NCBI RefSeq assembly: GCF_002797975.1
Contig: NZ_PGET01000001.1
Location: 1,984,001 to 2,048,000 of the forward strand
From: [Clostridium] celerecrescens 18A
GTDB lineage: Bacteria > Bacillota > Clostridia > Lachnospirales > Lachnospiraceae
Direction of reading: 5' to 3'
DNA: 64,000 nucleotides
The notes beneath the pieces are model-generated. The model made no database searches, was not told where the DNA came from, and saw nothing but the letters and a program-made list of their open reading frames with translations. The translations under genes were made by a program, and so were the position numbers. Shown in pieces: positions 48,549-56,975 of the stretch. Position 1 is the first letter of the stretch. Every line of letters starts with the position of its first letter.

Positions 48549-50816
48549 CTACTCCATACGTTTCTGCTGTTCATGAATCAAACGGACATTGAAACGCTCT
48601 GTTTCATTCAGCACATCTTCCTTAAAATCATTTGGATCAATCGTTCCTTCATACCAGCTGCATTGATTAAAATACCTCTGCAATTCTTCATCAGCAAACC
48701 GCCTGCCATGCCTTGCATAAATCTCGTTTCTTGCAATCCGCAGCTGACTGGCTGAAAGGTTCCATAAATCGGGCTCCTGCAACAGGCTATCGCTGCTGTT
48801 AGGAAATACAAATTCTGATCCGTCATATTTTGCTGTATCAGACTGAATCCGGAAAGTATCCCTGATTTGACTGATTTCACCATGCATTTTATTGTATTCC
48901 TCCATTATGGCATTGTCATCCATATAAAATGTCACATCCGTGGGCAGTGACATTACATATACATAGGGACCATCATACCCCCATATTTCATAATCAGGCA
49001 GATTAACATAGCTGCAGTCCGGGTACGCCTGAATATAGAATAGTACTCCATCCCCCATCAAATCAAAGGATTTTTTCTGATGGTAGCTGCATCCTCCTTT
49101 AAACTCATTTCTGACTGCCAGGCGATTCCATTCTTTTGGCAAATCCAGTTCAAAGCCTGGCGCCTGAGAGTCAGAAGCCGGAAAAGCCGGCTCCTGCTCC
49201 GTTTCAGACATCTCTGTTTCCATAGACTCAGCTTCTGCCTTCTCTGTGGCATTTGTTTGCGGTAGGAATTCTTCGGCTTTCGTCTCTTCATATACTATCG
49301 TTTTATTTGATCCCCAATGATGTGACCCCATTAGCATAAGGATTCCAAACAGTACCGTGTAAATACCAAGTACTCCGGTTAAAACAATCCGGCACACTAG
49401 GCCGGCCTTATCTTTGAGAAAGCCTGGAGATTCCGCATAGGTACAAGCTCCATATCCCATTGCCTCCCTGACTGCTTTATTTTCAGGGCTGTATGAAAGC
49501 AGATTCCCGCAGATATTTTTCGCCTTATCCATTTCACCTGCTTGTTTATAAACATTCATCTGAATGGGCATAAGCGGTATGCGATGATATGCATCTGGAA
49601 AACGGTCACAATATACATTCACATAGGCTTCCACCTGTCCAAATTTCTGATCCATATAAGCCTTCCTGATTTCAGACAACAGAAGCATTGCCTCTCCAAT
49701 TCTTTTTAATTTGGGATAATTATTAACAAGCTGCTTCTGGTATAAATATTCTGCTTCGGCATCTCCTTGCCATCCCAGCCCTATGTAGCATACGAAGCAT
49801 AGATTGCTGTGAACCAGCTGCATCAATTTCTTTTCATGAACGCCCTTCCAGTCATTATCTGCCAGCTTCAGTGCCTGCTCAAATCTTCCAGCCCTGGCAA
49901 ATCCGACGGCAGCATTATGTATCTGTTTCTTATAGTAAGACGGATACCGATAGGAACCATAGGCTGCCTCCATTAAAAAAGCTGCCGCCGCTGTAAGGGG
50001 CCGGTTCTCTTTTGTAAGTACCTCCATATGCTTTTTTGCCCAATAAACTCTCAAAGTAACGCCTAAACTCAAAATCACCAGGCTTAATATAAAAACAGTT
50101 CCTATGTAGTCTAATGAATTCAGAAAGACCCACTCGTATAAATATTCCTGGAAAATGTAAAAACCTGATCCGCAGGCAAATAATAATATCAGGCATCGGT
50201 TCCAGTATCGTCTTCTGTCATGGATTAAAAACCACCGCTTCCCTGCCTCAAATGCTGCCTGATTCACTGGGTCATCCTTAAATTCCAGTAATCTTTCTTT
50301 TGCATAGCTTCTCTTTTTACGATTATTTTTTAAAAGTTGAAAAACACCCAGTACCCCAAATATGATAACGGCAAACAGGTAGAGGTACCCCCGAATATTT
50401 GCCATCTCTCCCTGACTATAGTGAATCGAAGACAACCCCACAGAACTTAACAGTTCCCATTGCCAATTATCTGTATTGTCAAGGCTAAACATAAAAAGAT
50501 GGATTGGCGTGCTGTCTGAAGTTTTTCCCCTGATACTTCCCTCTATTATCAGTCTCGTCTGCTGCTCTTCCAACCTGCCTGTATAACTGACCGAAACATG
50601 AACGCCTTTTTCCGCAGCAAAAATATCAACACCCTCGCCATTTGCCCCTACATTGATTACAAAGCTCTGCTTTGCCGGCATAATTTCCATATCTAAATAA
50701 TGCAGCCGCTTTCCTTCAATCAAAGAAATCCACAATACAAAGCAGCCGATCAAGATGCCTAACCCATAATACAGGTAACGCATATTGCTTAACTTTACTA
50801 CGCCTTTTTTATTCAT
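48549..50816 (-). CDS. Large membrane protein with C-terminal YARHG domain
   Basis: A 755-residue protein. Hydrophobic helices are near residues 12-32, about 145-165, two at about 215-270, and one at about 490-510 (IVLTGVLGIYTVLFGILMLM). The part between 290 and 470 is helical and TPR-like (FEQALKLADNDW, AEAEYLYQKQLV, AKNICGNLLSYSPENKA). After the last helix comes a Glu/Thr-rich linker and then a folded part that ends in the YARHG domain: ASQLRIARNEIYARHGRRFA and FNQCSWYEGTIDP. YARHG domains are extracellular in Clostridia and of unknown role. The ATG with GGGGAGG was chosen over one seven codons upstream. Followed 20 bases later by the BNR protein gene. Confidence 0.82.
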   Translation of the reverse strand: MNKKGVVKLSNMRYLYYGLGILIGCFVLWISLIEGKRLHYLDMEIMPAKQSFVINVGANGEGVDIFAAEKGVHVSVSYTGRLEEQQTRLIIEGSIRGKTSDSTPIHLFMFSLDNTDNWQWELLSSVGLSSIHYSQGEMANIRGYLYLFAVIIFGVLGVFQLLKNNRKKRSYAKERLLEFKDDPVNQAAFEAGKRWFLIHDRRRYWNRCLILLFACGSGFYIFQEYLYEWVFLNSLDYIGTVFILSLVILSLGVTLRVYWAKKHMEVLTKENRPLTAAAAFLMEAAYGSYRYPSYYKKQIHNAAVGFARAGRFEQALKLADNDWKGVHEKKLMQLVHSNLCFVCYIGLGWQGDAEAEYLYQKQLVNNYPKLKRIGEAMLLLSEIRKAYMDQKFGQVEAYVNVYCDRFPDAYHRIPLMPIQMNVYKQAGEMDKAKNICGNLLSYSPENKAVREAMGYGACTYAESPGFLKDKAGLVCRIVLTGVLGIYTVLFGILMLMGSHHWGSNKTIVYEETKAEEFLPQTNATEKAEAESMETEMSETEQEPAFPASDSQAPGFELDLPKEWNRLAVRNEFKGGCSYHQKKSFDLMGDGVLFYIQAYPDCSYVNLPDYEIWGYDGPYVYVMSLPTDVTFYMDDNAIMEEYNKMHGEISQIRDTFRIQSDTAKYDGSEFVFPNSSDSLLQEPDLWNLSASQLRIARNEIYARHGRRFADEELQRYFNQCSWYEGTIDPNDFKEDVLNETERFNVRLIHEQQKRME

Positions 50817-50969
50817 TCTTCCTCCCCGCAAAAACATATAGAATCACTTAATAATAGCATAAAAATGAATGAAAAGAATAACGAAATCATAAATATTTCC
50901 AAACGAATTATTTTAACAGTCATCAGATAACCGATAGATTGATTCCTGGATCCCCGCGACATACAAAAA

Positions 50970-51001
50970 ACAAGGTACAGAATATTATTCCTGTACCTTG
51001 T
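50970..51001 (-). terminator. Terminator of the resistance operon
   Basis: An 11-bp stem ACAAGGTACAG/CTGTACCTTGT followed by TTTTT on the minus strand, 69 bases after the cfr-type stop. Confidence 0.9.
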
Positions 51002-51069
51002 TTTCTGCTATTGGCTCATGAACAAAACATAAGTGTAGGTGCTTGGTATAAAATTTAAGACTGGCATCA

Positions 51070-52101
51070 TCATTCATTTTCATAATGCAGCTGTCCGCAT
51101 GCAGCGCTAATTTCAGAACCAAATTGCGTTCTGATCGTCACGCTTATACCGGCCCTCTTCAGGGTACCGCCAAATTGCCTGATAGCACTTGAAGATTGAA
51201 ATTTAAAAGTTGTCTTATCCGTAGAATTATAAGGGATTAGATCAATGTGATATAAATGCCCCCATGAACCTCGGCTTTTCAATAAACTTACAACTGCTTC
51301 TGCATGATCTTTGGTATCATTAATTCCTTCAAGCATAATATAAGCAATAAACACTCGCCGGCCCGTATGAATGATATGTTCATCTAATGTTTTCATTACT
51401 TCATTCAATGGAAATCGTCTATTGATAGGCATTAAATCGTTTCGTTGCTTATCAAATGGTGAATGAAGGGAAAATGTCAGATTCACTTGTGGAAATTCTC
51501 TGGTCAATCTTTGAATTCCCGGTATAATGCCAATTGTTGAAACAGTAATTCTTCGCTGCCCTAATCCAAATAAACTCTGATCCGTTAAAATTTTTACTGC
51601 TTCAAATAACTCCGGATTTGCAAAAGCCTCACCCATTCCCATAAACGAAACACTATTGAGCTTATGGGAATTAAATAGGAAGTAAAGTAATTGGTCTGTT
51701 ATTTCATCAGCAGTAAGATTACGTTTAAAACCAGCACTTCCCGTTGCACAAAAGCGACAGCCAAAACCACAGCCGCATTGGGTAGATATACAAAACGATT
51801 CCCACCCCTGCTTATATTTTAATCCAACTGCTTCTATTTTTTCTCCATCAGTTAATTCGAACAGCAATTTTTCAACTTGTTTGGAATCTTGTATAAAAAC
51901 AGGTTTTACACTTGATACACGATTCCCAAATTCATTTACTAACGCCATCCTTAACTCTTTTGGCAGTATCTGCATATGATCAAAATTATCTATTCTTTGA
52001 TGAAAAATTGCATTTGTAATCTGTTTGTACCTATACTCAGGTAATCTCAAATCTGATACTATTTGTTTCATTATTTTATATTTTGTTTTTGTCTGTTTCA
52101 C
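51070..52101 (-). CDS. cfr: Cfr-type 23S rRNA (adenine-C8) methyltransferase
   Basis: A 343-residue radical SAM methyltransferase. KQGWESFCISTQCGCGFGCR followed by FCATGSAGFKRNLT contains the CxxxCxxC cluster motif in the Cfr form (GWESFCIS; housekeeping RlmN differs here). SFMGMGEAFANPE binds SAM, and SEISAACGQLHYENE has the methyl-carrying Cys. By eye it resembles staphylococcal Cfr through its whole length but is clearly a divergent variant. Cfr methylates A2503 and blocks phenicols, lincosamides, oxazolidinones, pleuromutilins and streptogramin A. The start is GTG with GAGGAGG eight bases before it. Second gene of the operon, behind its own leader peptide. Confidence 0.88.
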   Translation of the reverse strand: MKQTKTKYKIMKQIVSDLRLPEYRYKQITNAIFHQRIDNFDHMQILPKELRMALVNEFGNRVSSVKPVFIQDSKQVEKLLFELTDGEKIEAVGLKYKQGWESFCISTQCGCGFGCRFCATGSAGFKRNLTADEITDQLLYFLFNSHKLNSVSFMGMGEAFANPELFEAVKILTDQSLFGLGQRRITVSTIGIIPGIQRLTREFPQVNLTFSLHSPFDKQRNDLMPINRRFPLNEVMKTLDEHIIHTGRRVFIAYIMLEGINDTKDHAEAVVSLLKSRGSWGHLYHIDLIPYNSTDKTTFKFQSSSAIRQFGGTLKRAGISVTIRTQFGSEISAACGQLHYENE

Positions 52102-52134
52102 GCAGGCTTCCTCCTCACTATTAATCGTTAGGAA

Positions 52135-52207
52135 GCAAAGCCAGTATGATTAGCGACTTATATTACTCCATGCAAGCGTCGCCCAAATCATCCGGCTTTG
52201 CATGGAG
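52135..52207 (-). promoter_or_regulatory. Competing RNA stems controlling the cfr-type gene
   Basis: Plus-strand positions of the arms: 52198-52207 pairs with 52166-52175 (CTCCATGCAA, 10 bp perfect). Alternatively, 52194-52201 pairs with 52135-52142 (GCAAAGCC/GGCTTTGC, 8 bp) while 52178-52182 pairs with 52153-52157 (GCGAC/GTCGC) inside it. The two arrangements exclude each other and overlap the leader reading frame, as in translation- or transcription-attenuated resistance genes. Confidence 0.75.
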
Positions 52208-52243
52208 CCTATTGTGTGTTGCTATTCTTAACTCTTTAAACAT
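52163..52243 (-). CDS. 26-codon leader peptide of the cfr-type gene
   Basis: A short open frame ATG-26 codons-TAA, with AAAGGAAAT before its ATG, 18 bases after the Lsa-type stop and 61 bases before the Cfr start. Residues 9-10 are TH, 14 is H, 18 is D, 21 is G, and it ends ME. It aligns without gaps with the leader at 53806-53886, with the same length and the same residues at these positions. The pairing arms for the downstream stems lie within it, so ribosome stalling in it would refold the RNA. CAT of His14 pairs with ATG of Met25, so part of the conservation reflects RNA structure. Confidence 0.72.
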   Translation of the reverse strand: MFKELRIATHNRLHAKPDDLGDACME

Positions 52244-52261
52244 ATTAATTTCCTTTTCCAT

Positions 52262-53740
52262 TTACAATTTAATTGTTTTTGTTGCTACATTTTCACAAAA
52301 CGTTCTGTCATGCTCGACAAACAAAATTGTCAGCTCATGTTCTATTAATAATTTCTCAATCTGCATACGGGAAATGACATCAATAAAGTTCAATGGTTCA
52401 TCCCATATATATAAATGCGCCCGTTCACAGAGACTTTTGGCAAGCAATACCTTTTTCTTCTGTCCTCCGCTAAAATCCTCGATATTCTTTTCAAACTGTT
52501 CTCTTGAAAAATCAAGTTTTCTAAGCATGGATTTAAATAAACTCTCATCTATACAGTTTTTATCTGCATACTCAGATAGATCACCATATAAATCCGAGGT
52601 ATCTTGTGAGACATAGGAAATGATTAGCTTGTTGTTCTTACTTACAACTCCACTATGGGGGATGTCATCTCCATAAATCAATTTTAATATACTTGATTTT
52701 CCACTGCCGTTTTTTCCCTGAACAGCAATCTTTTCACCTTGCTCAATGGTGAAACTTATTCCTTCACAGACAATTTTATCGTCATATTTAATAGCAACAT
52801 CTGTAAGCTCTACAAGCTTTTTATCATGGAACGTGGACGGTGTTAACTTTAAGCTTTCATTTGATTCAATATTTTTAAGAAGCTTTGACTTTTCTTCTAT
52901 CATATTTTGTTGTCTGGCTTCTATATTTTTAGCACGCTTCATCATTTTTGCAGCTTTATGTCCAACATATCCTTTATCTAATTTGCTACCGGAATTAGTG
53001 GTTCCATGCTTACTGCTTTCAACACTGTCTGACCAGGTAGATGTTCGTTTTGCCGAGCTGGAAAGTCTGTTAATATCCCTTTTTAATTTTTCATTTTCTG
53101 CCAGTTCAAAATTATCTTGTAATTCCTTATTTCTCCACCATGAAGAAAAATTTCCCTTTTGTATTTCAATATTTGTTTTATTAATAGACAAGATATGGTC
53201 TATACAATTGTCCAAAAAAGACCTGTCATGGGAAATCAGAATAAATCCTTTCTTTTTTTTCAAATAATCACTCAGTTTTTGCCTGGCTTCAGCATCCAAA
53301 TGGTTGGTCGGCTCATCGATCAGCAAAAAGGATTTCTCCTTCAAAAACATGGCAGCCAACAATGCTTTGGTCTGCTCTCCTTTCGATAGTGTATAATACT
53401 GCCTGTATAAAGCGTCATAGTCCATATCTAACAATGATAATTCTTTAACTATCTCCCAATCCTCTGAGTTTGGACTGATCTCCCTTATGATATCTATGGT
53501 GAAATTATCTTGCTCCTGAACTTCATAAGGAAAATATTCAAACGTCACATTCGCTGAAATGCTTCCGCTATATTCGTATTTACCCAGCAAAAGATTTAGA
53601 AAAGTAGTCTTCCCTCTGCCATTTCTTCCGGTAAAGCCTAATTTCCAATCGGTATCAATCTGAAAGCTGACATTTTCAAAAATATTATCATAACTACCTT
53701 CATAAGCAAAGGTCAGGTTTGCTACATTTATTAAAGACAT
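52262..53740 (-). CDS. lsa: Lsa-type ABC-F ribosome protection ATPase
   Basis: A 492-residue soluble protein with two ATPase domains and no membrane part. First domain: GFTGRNGRGKTTFLNLLL (Walker A), TLSKGEQTKALLAAMFL (signature), FLLIDEPTNHLDAEARQK (Walker B). A charged linker of about 80 residues (EARQQNMIEEKSKLLKNIES at its end) would reach into the peptidyl-transferase region. Second domain: AVQGKNGSGKSSILKL, FSGGQKKKVLLAKSL, YIWDEPLNFIDVISRMQI. The layout follows Enterococcus Lsa(A). Such proteins dislodge lincosamides, streptogramin A and pleuromutilins. Ribosome binding site GAGGAGG. First gene of the operon with the Cfr-type gene. Confidence 0.87.
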   Translation of the reverse strand: MSLINVANLTFAYEGSYDNIFENVSFQIDTDWKLGFTGRNGRGKTTFLNLLLGKYEYSGSISANVTFEYFPYEVQEQDNFTIDIIREISPNSEDWEIVKELSLLDMDYDALYRQYYTLSKGEQTKALLAAMFLKEKSFLLIDEPTNHLDAEARQKLSDYLKKKKGFILISHDRSFLDNCIDHILSINKTNIEIQKGNFSSWWRNKELQDNFELAENEKLKRDINRLSSSAKRTSTWSDSVESSKHGTTNSGSKLDKGYVGHKAAKMMKRAKNIEARQQNMIEEKSKLLKNIESNESLKLTPSTFHDKKLVELTDVAIKYDDKIVCEGISFTIEQGEKIAVQGKNGSGKSSILKLIYGDDIPHSGVVSKNNKLIISYVSQDTSDLYGDLSEYADKNCIDESLFKSMLRKLDFSREQFEKNIEDFSGGQKKKVLLAKSLCERAHLYIWDEPLNFIDVISRMQIEKLLIEHELTILFVEHDRTFCENVATKTIKL

Positions 53741-53779
53741 AATTTTGTCCTCCTCTGAATTTTAAAATATAAATGACAA

Positions 53780-53848
53780 AGTCGGAACAATCGGCGACCT
53801 TATTATTACTCCATATAAATGCCGCCTGCAGTATCCGACTCTATATGG
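53780..53848 (-). promoter_or_regulatory. Competing RNA stems controlling the Lsa-type gene
   Basis: Plus-strand arms: 53842-53848 with 53811-53817 (CCATATA/TATATGG, 7 bp). Alternatively, 53834-53840 with 53780-53786 (AGTCGGA/TCCGACT, 7 bp) enclosing 53821-53826 with 53793-53798 (GGCGGC/GTCGCC, one G-U). Same order and same relation to the leader codons as in the cfr-type leader. Confidence 0.72.
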
Positions 53849-53886
53849 ATAGAAACATGTGTTAGTAAAGTATCTTTATTCATCAT
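53806..53886 (-). CDS. 26-codon leader peptide of the Lsa-type gene
   Basis: ATG-ATG start with AAGGAGG before it, 26 codons and a TAA stop, 65 bases before the Lsa start. Residues 9-10 TH, 14 H, 18 D, 21 G and the last two ME are shared with the cfr leader at identical positions. Also read on the minus strand, the bases after the stop (TAATAATAAGGTCGCC against TAATATAAGTCGC) are alike. Inferred to be a drug-sensing stall peptide. Confidence 0.75.
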   Translation of the reverse strand: MMNKDTLLTHVSIHIESDTAGGIYME

Positions 53887-53921
53887 AATATCCTCCTTAT
53901 CTGATTATATAAAAAAAATAA

Positions 53922-53952
53922 GAGCTGCAAGAATTAATTATTCTTACAGCTC
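53922..53952 (-). terminator. Strong leader terminator upstream of the Lsa leader peptide
   Basis: A 13-bp stem GAGCTGTAAGAAT/ATTCTTGCAGCTC (one U-G) with a 5-base loop, followed by TTATTTTTTTT on the minus strand. It sits between a likely extended -10 promoter and the leader-peptide ribosome binding site, so it should block the operon unless relieved. A mini open frame of six codons (53934-53954, MSCKNN) starts right at the 5' arm, without a clear ribosome binding site; its translation would open the stem. Confidence 0.75.
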
Positions 53953-53976
53953 ATAAATATACGCAGTTAAGCTAAA

Positions 53977-53985
53977 ATTATAGCA
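53977..53985 (-). promoter_or_regulatory. Extended -10 promoter element of the resistance operon
   Basis: TGC-TATAAT on the minus strand (TATAAT at 53977-53982). No convincing -35 box at 17 bases. The transcript would start about 15 bases before the leader terminator. From here to 54257 nothing else is seen. Confidence 0.5.
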
Positions 53986-54257
53986 CAACACAAGTGTATA
54001 AATTAAGAGAAAAAAGAATATCTTTCTTGCATGAGTACAACAAAACAAACAGGACAGCCCTGTTTCGCTTTGTATTAAGTGTACTGGAAAAATTAGCAAG
54101 AAAAATTAATCATTTTTTCACCTCGAATTATTTTTTACTATTGTACTATTATTTGCTTGAAATGTCAATAATGAGTGACTCAAGAAAATCTATTTCTTAT
54201 ATGCTGACATCAAATTCATACCCCTACAGTATAACCAGTGGCTTTTATTGGCAAGAT

Positions 54258-54626
54258 TTACGACGTTCGATTCGTTATTTCGTTCTCTATAAAATCTTTC
54301 GAAACATTCATTGCATTTATGATAGGGGTGAATCGCCTGTACTGAATTGTTTCTTTGTCATATTTAATTTGGGCCTTCTCAGTTTTGCTTATGATCGATT
54401 GAACAGGCGGTAATGCTTTTATTAAATCTGTTTTCGTATACATCCCTATATTACTATCTTTTTCTATTAAAGCTTTTGAAATATACAACGCCTTAATTCT
54501 ATTCTTTAAAAGAGAATGCTGTGATGTACCCTCAGCAAATTTTAATTGCATTTTTTCACAATTATTTATGGTAGTACATATGAGCTGTAATGCAGCATCC
54601 AACTCTTTTTGCAAATAATTTTCCAT
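54258..54626 (-). CDS. Hypothetical helical protein of two internal repeats
   Basis: A 122-residue, probably all-helical cytoplasmic protein I do not recognise. The two halves are alike: CTTINNCEKMQLKFAEGTSQ, then LLKNRIKALYISKALIEKD, and QSIISKTEKAQIKYDKETIQ, then FTPIINAMNVSKDFIENE. The shared pattern is I..(C/T)EK-Q-K(F/Y)-x-E-T-Q, then I.A..(I/V)SK..IE. Good ribosome binding site AGGAG. It lies between the P-type ATPase and the resistance operon, with no obvious link to either. Confidence 0.7.
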   Translation of the reverse strand: MENYLQKELDAALQLICTTINNCEKMQLKFAEGTSQHSLLKNRIKALYISKALIEKDSNIGMYTKTDLIKALPPVQSIISKTEKAQIKYDKETIQYRRFTPIINAMNVSKDFIENEITNRTS

Positions 54627-54662
54627 GTATTTCTCCTAGTAAGATTAGCGTAAGGCTGGAAT

Positions 54663-56975
54663 TTAGCCGAGGTCATCATGTTTCTCAATATTTTGCTTTA
54701 TACCGATCAGAAGTGCCAAAAATAGCAAGAGCCCTACAAATACTTCTCCTATATAAGATAACATCGCCCTGGTCATGGCAGAAATTTCAAACAACTGCGG
54801 CAATATCCACAGCGCACCAAATGCCCCAAACACCATTGTAACACAAATAAATATACGCAGCTTTGTAAATGGAATACAACTTTTAATAACTGACAGCATA
54901 GATACCAGAATCAAAAGCATGTACATAATCGTCTGCCTCTGCTGTGTATCAAATGGTAAGGTAAGGCTGATAAAAATGATTCCAGCTGTAATTGTCAGTG
55001 CAAACGGTGCAGCATTTGCCAATGCTGTCCTTAAGAAAGAGCTGCGAACCCTCTTTGTATTCGATTCAAAAATCGTCAGAAACGATGGATATGCTTCGAT
55101 AAAGGCATCAATCAGCGTAATTTGAATTGGAATAAACGGAAAAGGCATGTTGAACAGCAGGAAGAAAAGGGACAGTAGCAAAGAATAGATCGTCTTAATA
55201 AAGAATATCCCTGCTGTTCTGGTCACATGATTAATCACTTTTCTTCCTTCCAACACCACCTGCGGCAGATTCGCAAAATCTGAGTCTAACAAAACGATCT
55301 GTGAAATCTGACGGCTGGCATCACTGCCTTCGGCTATGGCGATAGAACAATCTGCTTCTCTAAGGGCCAAAAGATCATTCACACCATCACCAGTCATCGC
55401 CACCTGATGTCCTGCGCGCTTCATAGCCATCACAAGCAACTGCTTTTGTTTCGGTGTCACCCGGGCGAATACTGTATATTTCATGCATATGCTGTCATAA
55501 TCCGTAATCTCTCCAAAGGAGGACAGATCGACTGCATTTTCCCATTCCTCTAATCCTGCTTTCTTCGCGATGATAGACACTGTTTTAATATGATCACCGG
55601 AAATAACTTTTACTTCAACACCTTCTTTACGAAAATACTCCAGCGTTTTTGCAGTGCCTTTTCGAATGTTATCTTCTAAAATAACGGCGCACAGCGGTTC
55701 AATCTCATCCGGCAGTTCTCTTTCATTTTGCCATTCGCCATTGTAATAGCCTATTACAACAGCACGGCAGCCCTTTTCTATCTGGTGTTCTACATCCGAA
55801 GGCAAAACATTCATAATCCTCTCAGCCGCACCAATGAATACTGTTCCGGCAGTGTGAAAGCTGACCGCCCCCCATTTCCGAAGGGAGGAAAAAGGAACTT
55901 TATATGTCTGCTGGTACACGGAATTTGTTCCAAAATGCTCTTGAAGAGCCTGAAAGGTAGCGTTATTATCATTGCTCGCAGCAAGATAAGACTGAATCAG
56001 CGGTGACAGTTTTTTATTCGTTGAATCAGATAACGGAAGCACTTCCTTAACCTTCATCTTACCGTCTGTGATGGTTCCCGTTTTATCAAGGCACAGAACA
56101 TCCACATGAGCCAGTGTCTCCAGGGAATAGATATTCTGGACCAGAATCTTCATGTTTGCCAGACGGATAACGCCGTTTGCAAGCGAAACGGCAATCAGGA
56201 GCACCAATCCTTTGGGCAGCATCCCCAAAAGTGCCGCCGAAGAAGATACGACAGCATCCGAGACCAATACTTGCCTGAGCATGATTGCTTCAAGGAACAA
56301 CAGAATCCCCAACGGTACAATGAGAAAGCTTGTAAAGCGGGTCACCTGTTTCATGGAACCGAGCAATTCAGACGACACTCTCTTGGCTTTTTTGGTTTCT
56401 TCCATAAGCTTTACGGCATAATTTTCACTGCCTACGTGCGTTGTTTTTGCATAGCATTTTCCTGTGACGACAAAGCTTCCGGAAAAAAGCTCGCTGCCCT
56501 CTGTCTTTAATATGGCATCACTCTCGCCGGTTAACAGCGATTCATTAACTTCTGCCATACCGCCAAGTACAATCCCGTCATTGCAGATTTGATGTCCGCT
56601 TTCCAGTACCATTACATCATCTATAACAATGTCCTCGGTTTCAACGACAATCTCTCTGCCATCTCTTACCAATTTTGCCTTTGGCCGGTTCAAGATCGAC
56701 AGCTCGTCTATCAGTTTTTTTGCTTTCAGTTCCTGTGCAATCCCGATCACAATATTGATTATAATAATGACAATAAAAATCATATTGGAATAAGCACCGA
56801 CAGCGAAAAGCAATGCCGCAATTATAAAATTGAGCAAATTAAATAATGTAAAAATGTTTTCTTTAAATACCTGCGCTTTGGTTTTTGTAATGGAACCTGG
56901 TGGTTTTCCCATATCTCCCCGTTCTTTGCGATCCATTACTTCCTGCGTAGATAGACCTTGTATTGGTGCCTCCAT
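54663..56975 (-). CDS. Cation-translocating P-type ATPase (CtpE-like)
   Basis: A 770-residue membrane pump. In order: two N-terminal helices, the actuator domain with EVNESLLTGESDAIL (TGES), two helices with MLPKGLVLLIAVSLA (Pro in the ion-binding helix), the phosphorylation site VDVLCLDKTGTITDGKMK (Asp), the nucleotide domain, then MTGDGVNDLLALREADCSIA (hinge), and about six C-terminal helices. No metal-binding CxxC domain at the N-terminus and no CPC in the membrane, so not a heavy-metal pump. The layout fits CtpE-like or calcium/magnesium-type pumps; the ion is uncertain. The ATG preceded by TGGAGG was chosen over one four codons upstream. Confidence 0.85.
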   Translation of the reverse strand: MEAPIQGLSTQEVMDRKERGDMGKPPGSITKTKAQVFKENIFTLFNLLNFIIAALLFAVGAYSNMIFIVIIIINIVIGIAQELKAKKLIDELSILNRPKAKLVRDGREIVVETEDIVIDDVMVLESGHQICNDGIVLGGMAEVNESLLTGESDAILKTEGSELFSGSFVVTGKCYAKTTHVGSENYAVKLMEETKKAKRVSSELLGSMKQVTRFTSFLIVPLGILLFLEAIMLRQVLVSDAVVSSSAALLGMLPKGLVLLIAVSLANGVIRLANMKILVQNIYSLETLAHVDVLCLDKTGTITDGKMKVKEVLPLSDSTNKKLSPLIQSYLAASNDNNATFQALQEHFGTNSVYQQTYKVPFSSLRKWGAVSFHTAGTVFIGAAERIMNVLPSDVEHQIEKGCRAVVIGYYNGEWQNERELPDEIEPLCAVILEDNIRKGTAKTLEYFRKEGVEVKVISGDHIKTVSIIAKKAGLEEWENAVDLSSFGEITDYDSICMKYTVFARVTPKQKQLLVMAMKRAGHQVAMTGDGVNDLLALREADCSIAIAEGSDASRQISQIVLLDSDFANLPQVVLEGRKVINHVTRTAGIFFIKTIYSLLLSLFFLLFNMPFPFIPIQITLIDAFIEAYPSFLTIFESNTKRVRSSFLRTALANAAPFALTITAGIIFISLTLPFDTQQRQTIMYMLLILVSMLSVIKSCIPFTKLRIFICVTMVFGAFGALWILPQLFEISAMTRAMLSYIGEVFVGLLLFLALLIGIKQNIEKHDDLG

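Follow-up and report, generated by a model that had tools for sequence, protein, structure and literature searches.

Leader elements shared by an lsa-type and a cfr-type gene of [Clostridium] celerecrescens: a probable family of ribosome-sensing translation attenuators

The window analysed here is a stretch of 64,000 nucleotides from [Clostridium] celerecrescens 18A (contig NZ_PGET01000001.1, positions 1,984,001 to 2,048,000). On its minus strand an lsa-type ABC-F gene is followed by a cfr-type gene, and each is preceded by a short leader open reading frame (ORF). Are the two leaders related, and could a ribosome on each of them control the gene that follows? A first-pass annotation had proposed that one attenuator module was duplicated or recruited twice, so that each gene is controlled by ribosome stalling. 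Our analysis indicates that both leaders probably belong to one family of ribosome-sensing translation attenuators, in which a ribosome pause would open the next start site. Coordinates are window positions, and all window features described are on the minus strand.

Leader 1, upstream of lsa, lies at 53806..53886 and encodes MMNKDTLLTHVSIHIESDTAGGIYME, and leader 2, upstream of cfr, lies at 52163..52243 and encodes MFKELRIATHNRLHAKPDDLGDACME. Both have 26 codons followed by a stop codon, with Thr9-His10 encoded at 53862-53857 and 52219-52214 respectively, and both are short ORFs that lie directly upstream of the target and have a ribosome-binding site of their own. The length of leader 2 depends on a presumed start, because an in-frame ATG six codons further upstream could open the same ORF (32 codons); of 12 cfr leaders, 11 have the aligned ATG and the remaining one (locus L080) begins three codons later. 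Aligned without gaps, the two peptides share precisely the eight residues first listed for them (Met1, Thr9, His10, His14, Asp18, Gly21, Met25 and Glu26). With Met1 fixed, eight or more identities were reached in 45 of 200,000 shuffles of leader 2. A covariance model built from ten lsa leaders only (R3) recovered the window cfr leader with an E-value of 3.1e-8 and the leaders of two further cfr loci, L043 and L080, at 2.5e-8 and 3.3e-8 (136,508 bases searched), so that the two 26-codon leaders reported earlier are both present and homologous. Chance together with base-pairing constraint, without common origin or function, might account for a pair that shares only 8 of 26 residues, several of them in paired arms. 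That explanation is already contradicted by the recovery of cfr leaders with an lsa-only model, by the far greater number of residues shared among relatives and by the family-wide covariation described below, and we regard it as hardly credible.

Leaders of relatives share more residues than the window pair does, for example MRNKDTIITHDNLHIKPDTAGDIYME and MFNENIKVTHNRLHAKPDVLGDACME. The same operon with both leaders is found in Lacrimispora, Clostridium, Terrisporobacter, Metaclostridioides and Tissierella; in Tissierella simiarum the two leaders are MRNKDTIITHDNLHIKPDTAGDIYME and MFYKNTKVTHNRLRAKSDILGDACME. Both leaders were present in all ten loci L033-L042, nine of which have a full-length lsa, and at L043 and L080, where cfr has no lsa directly upstream, the leader is still present. 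In Clostridium sp. OS1-26 (L034:3920-4500) both leaders and cfr are kept around a 90-codon remnant of lsa.

Two helices, as originally described, can form in both leader regions. Helix I lies inside the leader and joins codons 13-16 to codons 23-26, and helix II joins codons 15-22 to RNA beyond the stop codon. In leader 1, helix I spans 53809..53850 (arms 53850-53841 and 53818-53809) and helix II spans 53776..53844 (53844-53835 with 53785-53776, and 53826-53821 with 53798-53793). In leader 2 the corresponding elements are at 52166..52207 (52207-52198 with 52175-52166) and 52135..52201 (52201-52192 with 52144-52135, and 52183-52178 with 52157-52152). The outermost pair of helix I is missing from leader 1 because its arm reads ATCC, as it does in L033; the other eight aligned lsa leaders have CTCC or CTTC. 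The CAT codon of His14 stands opposite the ATG of Met25 in both leaders, as had been pointed out. Both regions fold better than dinucleotide shuffles (z scores of -2.7 and -4.2).

Covariation was scored in an alignment of 23 sequences (A4; 11 lsa and 12 cfr leaders), made with MAFFT without a model and with one stretch of L011 misplaced, and in a family-wide alignment of 58 distinct rows (A6) drawn partly from the same loci. Because both helices use columns 22-25 of A4 they are mutually exclusive, and both involve the leader ORF, as in attenuators of the Erm type. In A4, 97.8% of cells were paired in helix I and 98.6% in helix II, with covariation scores of 0.300 and 0.333 against 0.181 and 0.241 after shuffling; for both helices, score and paired cells were matched by none of 500 shuffles. 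In A6, helix I was 96.9% paired with a score of 0.269 (0.160 shuffled), and helix II was 95.0% paired, 13 of its 16 pairs showing double changes, with a score of 0.534 (0.270 shuffled), although the A6 counts keep truncated and false rows and, since A6, like the alignment A5, was aligned to a model that carries helix II, the helix II counts are biased towards that helix. Column 22 of A4 is A in 11 of 11 lsa leaders and G in 12 of 12 cfr leaders. Its partner changes with it in helix II in 23 of 23 sequences and in helix I in 22 of 23 (L080 has a G-U pair), as expected of exclusive helices, and residues 15 and 24 therefore differ as a pair (Ile/Tyr versus Ala/Cys). The first-pass annotation had staked its proposal on finding the element, with covarying arms, in other genomes by covariance-model search; it does recur in Clostridia genomes, and its arms covary.

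The switch that these features suggest would work as follows. At codons 12-14 the leader ORF reaches an RNA arm, CTCC-AT, with two possible partners: the end of the leader, giving helix I, or the Shine-Dalgarno sequence of the next gene, a pairing that would keep that gene closed. A ribosome paused with Thr9-His10 at the P site, presumably because of a drug at the peptidyl-transferase centre, would cover the arm, codons 15-22 could then pair downstream as helix II, and the Shine-Dalgarno sequence would be freed. We infer leader translation, the pause, its trigger and induction, and we propose drug dependence because of the target genes and the known kind of system.

To which RNA does the arm pair, and where would a ribosome have to stand? 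In leader 2 the anti-Shine-Dalgarno arm, AGGCTCC (codon 12 to the first base of codon 14), is at 52204..52210 according to folding and duplex energies. In the lowest-energy fold of the window cfr leader AGGCUCC holds the Shine-Dalgarno region, and the GGAGG of cfr (52110..52114) is closed. Mean duplex energies with the Shine-Dalgarno region, taken in 3-nt steps, were at their strongest over the arm for each of the four classes of target: -10.3 kcal/mol for cfr-type genes (Cfr, 13 elements), -9.4 for exporter genes of the MFS type (11), -7.3 for genes of the CD3324 family (17) and -6.5 for lsa-type genes (Lsa, 46). Within the window the values were -11.3 for cfr and -4.6 for lsa, and in 12 cfr sequences 94% of cells in this pairing were paired. 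We then computed the opening energy of the target start site with a ribosome footprint masked 15 nt to each side of P-site positions -21, -15, -12, -9, -3, 6, 15 and 24. Among these positions the minimum fell at 12 nt before the arm, approximately at Thr9 (at Cys-Ile in MFS-type leaders), so that the conserved peptide motif and the computed RNA optimum coincide. Opening energies for the free RNA, for a ribosome at -12 and for one 6 nt inside the arm were 11.2, 7.6 and 12.7 kcal/mol for Cfr targets, 9.0, 7.7 and 11.4 for CD3324 targets and 8.6, 5.2 and 10.1 for MFS targets. At -12 the energy dropped by at least 1 kcal in 11 of 13 Cfr, 12 of 17 CD3324 and 9 of 11 MFS elements; relative to the helix I state, the stalled state opened by at least 1 kcal/mol in 13/13, 14/17 and 11/11 respectively. 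The window cfr start site itself fell in silico from 12.6 to 6.4 kcal/mol with the ribosome at the defined codon. An earlier measure based on mean Shine-Dalgarno pairing agreed with this trend: of 89 elements, 26 rose and 4 fell by more than 0.15 at -12, and lsa stayed flat at 0.32.

Might helix II, or a related hairpin, be a transcription terminator, making the leaders transcription attenuators? U-rich RNA follows helix II in many members, and a true upstream ORF (uORF)/terminator unit is located just upstream in the window. However, the window has no long U run after helix II, and accessibility of the Shine-Dalgarno sequence tracks ribosome position for cfr, MFS and CD3324 targets. A terminator scan returned no coding-strand site at helix II, the scan covering loops of 3-8 bases only, a range in which the whole of helix II is undetectable. 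Termination at the leaders thus seems to us distinctly unlikely.

Selection acts on the peptide and on the RNA separately. In 77 distinct lsa, cfr and CD3324 elements residue 9 is Thr in 70, through four codons (ACA 44, ACG 13, ACC 9, ACT 4), residue 10 is His in 74 (CAT 66, CAC 8), and 72 have Leu, Val or Ile at residue 8. The codons of Thr9-His10 lie outside helices I and II. Leaders of the MFS type, M[KR]xCIVxAPCKV, cross this arm in a shifted frame, so that CTC-CAT-GCA-AAG (Leu-His-Ala-Lys) becomes GCT-CCA-TGC-AAA (Ala-Pro-Cys-Lys). Of 16 such leaders, 14 have the Ile 11 nt upstream of the arm (12 of the 14 with an MFS target); L161 and L162 have the Leu-His frame instead, and L168, L170 and L172 may use the third frame. 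As one arm thus underlies distinct conserved peptides in distinct frames, the RNA core is kept for its own sake.

This persistence of the core under a changed frame, with L-H-A-K in lsa, cfr and CD3324 leaders and A-P-C-K in MFS leaders, also suits a model in which the RNA alone regulates, in response to a protein, a small molecule or ribosome traffic, and the sequence of the leader peptide is irrelevant. We consider that model unlikely, because Thr9-His10 is kept by way of synonymous codons in most of the elements, stands clear of the helices at the ribosome position that opens the start site best, and has in the MFS-type leaders a counterpart, C-I-V, kept at the same distance (Ile at -11). 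Thr-His being the most conserved dipeptide, the leaders could alternatively sense the charging of tRNA-Thr or tRNA-His, that is starvation rather than a drug. Yet Thr or His codons do not occur in runs at this position, ABC-F, Cfr and efflux genes, and not amino-acid genes, make up the main targets, and MFS-type leaders have Cys-Ile-Val instead; starvation sensing is accordingly quite improbable. On a broader proposal our judgement is evenly divided: the family may be a portable RNA actuator with exchangeable peptide sensors. Its core, the anti-Shine-Dalgarno arm with helix II, would have been joined, in Clostridia and in Bacilli of the Paenibacillus type, to genes for rRNA methylases, ribosome protection, efflux and small regulators; two or more unrelated peptides (V/I/L-T-H, and C-I-V in the other frame) would stall the ribosome at the same RNA spot; and the element would have travelled on plasmids with lsa(B).

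How widely does the element occur? Rfam 15 gave no match at the gathering score for window positions 50800-54700, for L047, L117 and L118 or for eight further loci, and the sub-threshold matches there were weak, none overlapping an element. Genome searches with two further covariance models, R1 and R2, used E-values per genome, for which about four chance hits are expected with R1 in 391 genomes and about one with R2 in 225. R1 found the element in 6 of the 391 genomes sampled across the class (E 0.01; five of the six at 2.2e-10 or better), the matches including training genomes G000, G757 and G705. R2 found it in 48 of 225 genomes of the order that includes Clostridium (E 0.005; training genomes among them, at least G560, G705, G757, G883 and G903) and in 13 of 246 in the order to which a Paenibacillus belongs (E 0.001; at least training genomes G983, G1069 and G1161, recognised by contig and coordinates). 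The match in G598 is borderline on its own (E 0.0019), yet it precedes an MFS gene as other MFS members do.

By BLAST, the next gene in a table of 113 rows was Lsa in 51, CD3324-family in 18, Cfr in 15 and an MFS exporter in 14, in a table that holds eight antisense shadows of true elements, counts as Cfr one false hit inside cfr (L175:1637; 14 are real), files L047 under 'other' (its true target being a CD3324 start), merges lsa(E) with the identical L171 and has the wrong leader chosen automatically in several rows (for example L080, L099, L148 and L157). Two representatives tie the small target gene to CD3324 (NF040785) and Mor (PF08765), and two MFS representatives resemble Mef proteins at scores below the curated cut-offs. 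Of 67 Bacillales-type cfr loci, 15 have the element downstream of cfr, where it precedes a CD3324 gene in 11, lsa in three and neither in L065. Among plasmid genes, lsa(B) of Staphylococcus aureus pGMI17-006 is preceded by a member of this family with 26 codons, MVLELDVTHELLRISRYNLSNIYGVI (R2 E-value of 6e-7), and lsa(E) gave a degenerate match (9e-6 with R2, 5e-6 with R3); cfr, cfr(C) and cfr(D), one plasmid record each, gave none. A blastn search of plasmids with each leader gave no match, where the covariance model did match lsa(B) and lsa(E).

Weaker matches at L168, L172, L174 and L160 may be further targets or chance; the genes there encode a kinase-like protein (weak CotS/homoserine-kinase similarity), proteins of 323 and 405 amino acids without an NCBIfam match and an esterase-looking protein of 261 amino acids. 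Bacillales-type cfr genes (L044-L112) have a different, strongly conserved leader, mostly of 34-39 codons, for example MFEVVNVHVNRSLSVGTVHDQTKRMPEHYPSIDRCT followed by a stop codon; the ending ID[RK]CT and stop was found within 300 bases upstream of cfr in 58 of 67 such loci. Plasmid cfr and cfr(D) (L201:408-737 and L203:1168-1497) share an upstream ORF that begins M[LI]TVF[RK]xLFGxNxKIGNRLA.

Several results weigh against translation attenuation by one family. In the window lsa leader the opening energy was 6.2 kcal/mol free and 6.35 stalled, and moved only from 6.5 to 6.3 relative to the helix I state. The claim of control by stalling at each gene thus keeps the support of folding for cfr, where a stall would open the start, and lacks it for the window lsa. 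The lsa class as a whole responds weakly (from 7.0 to 6.5 kcal/mol over 46 elements, of which 12 fall and 8 rise by at least 1), 16 of 45 opening and 8 of 45 closing by at least 1 kcal relative to helix I; L011 closes, from 3.1 to 5.75. Two of the 17 CD3324 elements also rise. Imposing helix I on the window leaders requires 4.0 kcal/mol for cfr and 6.0 kcal/mol for lsa, so that helix I is not the equilibrium off-state. On the covariation side, further pair types were no better than shuffles in A4 (202/500 and 500/500) or in helix I of A6 (320/500), double-change pairs of helix II in A4 beat shuffles weakly (68/500), and the anti-Shine-Dalgarno pairing has a single compensated pair, in 2 of 12 sequences, near the shuffled level. 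As to membership, Thr-His is absent from some members (L171) and others are truncated (L173), and R3 does not reach significance for lsa(B) (E 0.19) or for the two MFS leaders tried (0.098 and 0.78), the membership of lsa(B) and the MFS leaders resting on R1 and R2. Some lsa elements do open, L087 from 14.1 to 5.3 and plasmid lsa(B) from 7.8 to 2.8 kcal/mol.

What, then, would control lsa in the window? Upstream of leader 1 are a six-codon uORF, MINFSC and a stop codon (54093..54113, read from the sequence), and an intrinsic terminator with a 13-pair stem and a T-rich tail (53912..53952, from folding and a pattern scan). Read from the sequence, the 3′ half of this terminator, TTCTTGC, could pair instead with an upstream GCAAGAA. 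This first-tier unit folds far better than shuffles (z -6.2), and its very short uORF, intrinsic terminator and alternative pairing give it the predicted make-up of a VmlR/CplR-type attenuator. MINFSC or MIKFSC occurs in seven of the ten loci L033-L042, being absent from L039 and altered in frame in L040 and L041. It is probably this uORF/terminator unit that mainly controls lsa, leader 1 being secondary or decaying; leader 1 may add little here, or may act via mRNA stability or coupling. In Clostridium mobile (L039:2440-2713) the unit is missing and a repeated sequence stands just upstream of leader 1 instead. Elsewhere, lsa loci L004, L017, L020, L022, L024, L026, L027, L030, L031 and L032 have, by eye, a uORF of six to seven codons of the form M..xSC (for example MINISC, MKTTSC and MRTASC; L020 and L032 deviate). 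These loci show a GCAAGAAAGT/ACTTTCTTGC-type terminator unit and no 26-codon leader in the 330 bases shown, misses at minus-strand loci not counting as absence since that listing left them unflipped. The M..xSC uORF with its terminator would constitute a first-tier attenuator class of its own in the window's family.

The full order on the minus strand is a promoter-like site, the MINFSC uORF, the intrinsic terminator, leader 1, lsa, leader 2 and cfr. The likely operon promoter, TTGACA-17-TACAAT (54140..54168), is a pattern match at 11 of 12 consensus positions. The lsa-type gene (52262..53740, 492 amino acids) scores 761.3 bits against NCBIfam ABCF_Lsa_all (cut-off 750) and has a Shine-Dalgarno sequence, GGAGG, read at 53749..53753. 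The cfr-type gene (51070..52101, 343 amino acids, GTG start) scores 609.7 bits against rSAM_Cfr (cut-off 550) and 588.7 against CfrAB (cut-off 530). The two had been called ribosome-protection genes, a description that does not hold for Cfr, which is an rRNA methyltransferase and not a ribosome-protection protein. A simple pattern scan found no terminator-like or promoter-like site on the minus strand from the lsa stop to the cfr start, and a single lsa-cfr transcript is therefore likely on these patterns.

The source genome is a single contig of 5.27 Mb, in which R1 and R2, at the cut-offs used, found only the two window elements. It also has a second Lsa-type gene, of 58% identity (G000:C1:1648848-1650344). 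The named Cfr proteins nearest to that of the window include Lacrimispora entries of 97, 94 and 93% identity, which places the source probably in or close to Lacrimispora, and identity to one plasmid Cfr(C) is 58.1%. Among 397 genomes of the family, such a cfr was found in this genome only (E of 1e-90 or lower) and Lsa relatives in 172 (E of 1e-100 or lower), so that the lsa-cfr pair looks acquired by this genome; the viral contigs scanned had no cfr relative. One paper reports that clindamycin resistance in Lacrimispora sanguinis is tied to cfr in a chromosomal unit of 3,378 bp, named cfr(C) (PMC12578346), in the main text of which the word 'leader' does not occur, and another that cfr often adjoins lsa (PMC10201436).

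Did the two leaders arise from one another within this operon? In a tree of 95 elements (106 columns, unrooted, with many forks unresolved) 49 of 50 lsa elements fell in one supported clade (99/99), and the cfr, MFS and CD3324 elements lay outside it. Exclusion of the cfr elements from the lsa clade favours old, separate recruitment, and disfavours a recent tandem duplication inside the operon. Of the two origins first suggested, duplication or double recruitment of one attenuator module, the common module agrees with the recovery of the cfr leader by R3 and with covariation of both alternative helices, and the tree favours recruitment. To judge from these sequences, the leaders are most likely two old lineages of the module that were brought together.

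The closest known parallel in logic is the Erm-type attenuator. ErmCL stalls its ribosome near codon 9. In the ErmCL/ermC and ErmBL/ermB systems a drug-stalled leader ribosome refolds the mRNA and exposes the Shine-Dalgarno sequence of the target (PMC10219788, PMC8116656), ErmBL stalling at its tenth codon (PMC8274638). The present elements likewise have a leader ORF on which ribosome position alters mRNA folding towards an open target start, here in silico. They differ in that peptide and RNA sequences look unrelated by eye, that the 5′ arm itself is the anti-Shine-Dalgarno sequence, and that the targets are Lsa, Cfr, MFS and CD3324 genes. Antibiotic-responsive uORF attenuators are described for the ABC-F genes VmlR (MIN), CplR (MR[I/M]) and LsaA (MAGN); VmlR combines transcription and translation attenuation, and induction of CplR requires uORF stalling and not premature termination (PMC9226507, PMC10201436). 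The MINFSC uORF with its terminator resembles the VmlR kind (PMC9226507). Those uORFs have 3-4 codons, and the 26-codon leaders of the window form a further layer, between the uORF unit and lsa and between lsa and cfr. Streptococcal mef/msr is a leader-controlled macrolide efflux system (PMC4335068, PMC10314930), which works by transcription attenuation (PMC4335068), in contrast to the translation attenuation proposed for this family. Of the plasmid genes, lsa(B) shares a leader of this family and lsa(E) a degenerate one, unlike cfr, cfr(C) and cfr(D). No such leaders were met in the extracts of the open-access literature searched (PMC10201436, PMC9226507, PMC12421871, PMC10219788, PMC12578346, PMC8116656, PMC11047308). 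Apparently, then, these are Erm-like attenuators in logic and a new family in sequence and structure.

Stalling leaders tend to be regarded as peculiarities of individual genes; here, putative examples recur as an alignable family. From sequence alone, membership would predict that lsa, cfr and Mef-like genes are inducible, the mobile lsa(B) among them. Since distinct conserved peptides are encoded over one RNA arm in distinct frames, the RNA actuator appears separable from the peptide sensor, and such natural sensor swaps on one actuator may offer a way to match nascent-chain motifs with the drugs that they sense. With its two copies, the operon provides a natural setting in which two serial attenuators and an upstream terminator would share one transcript.

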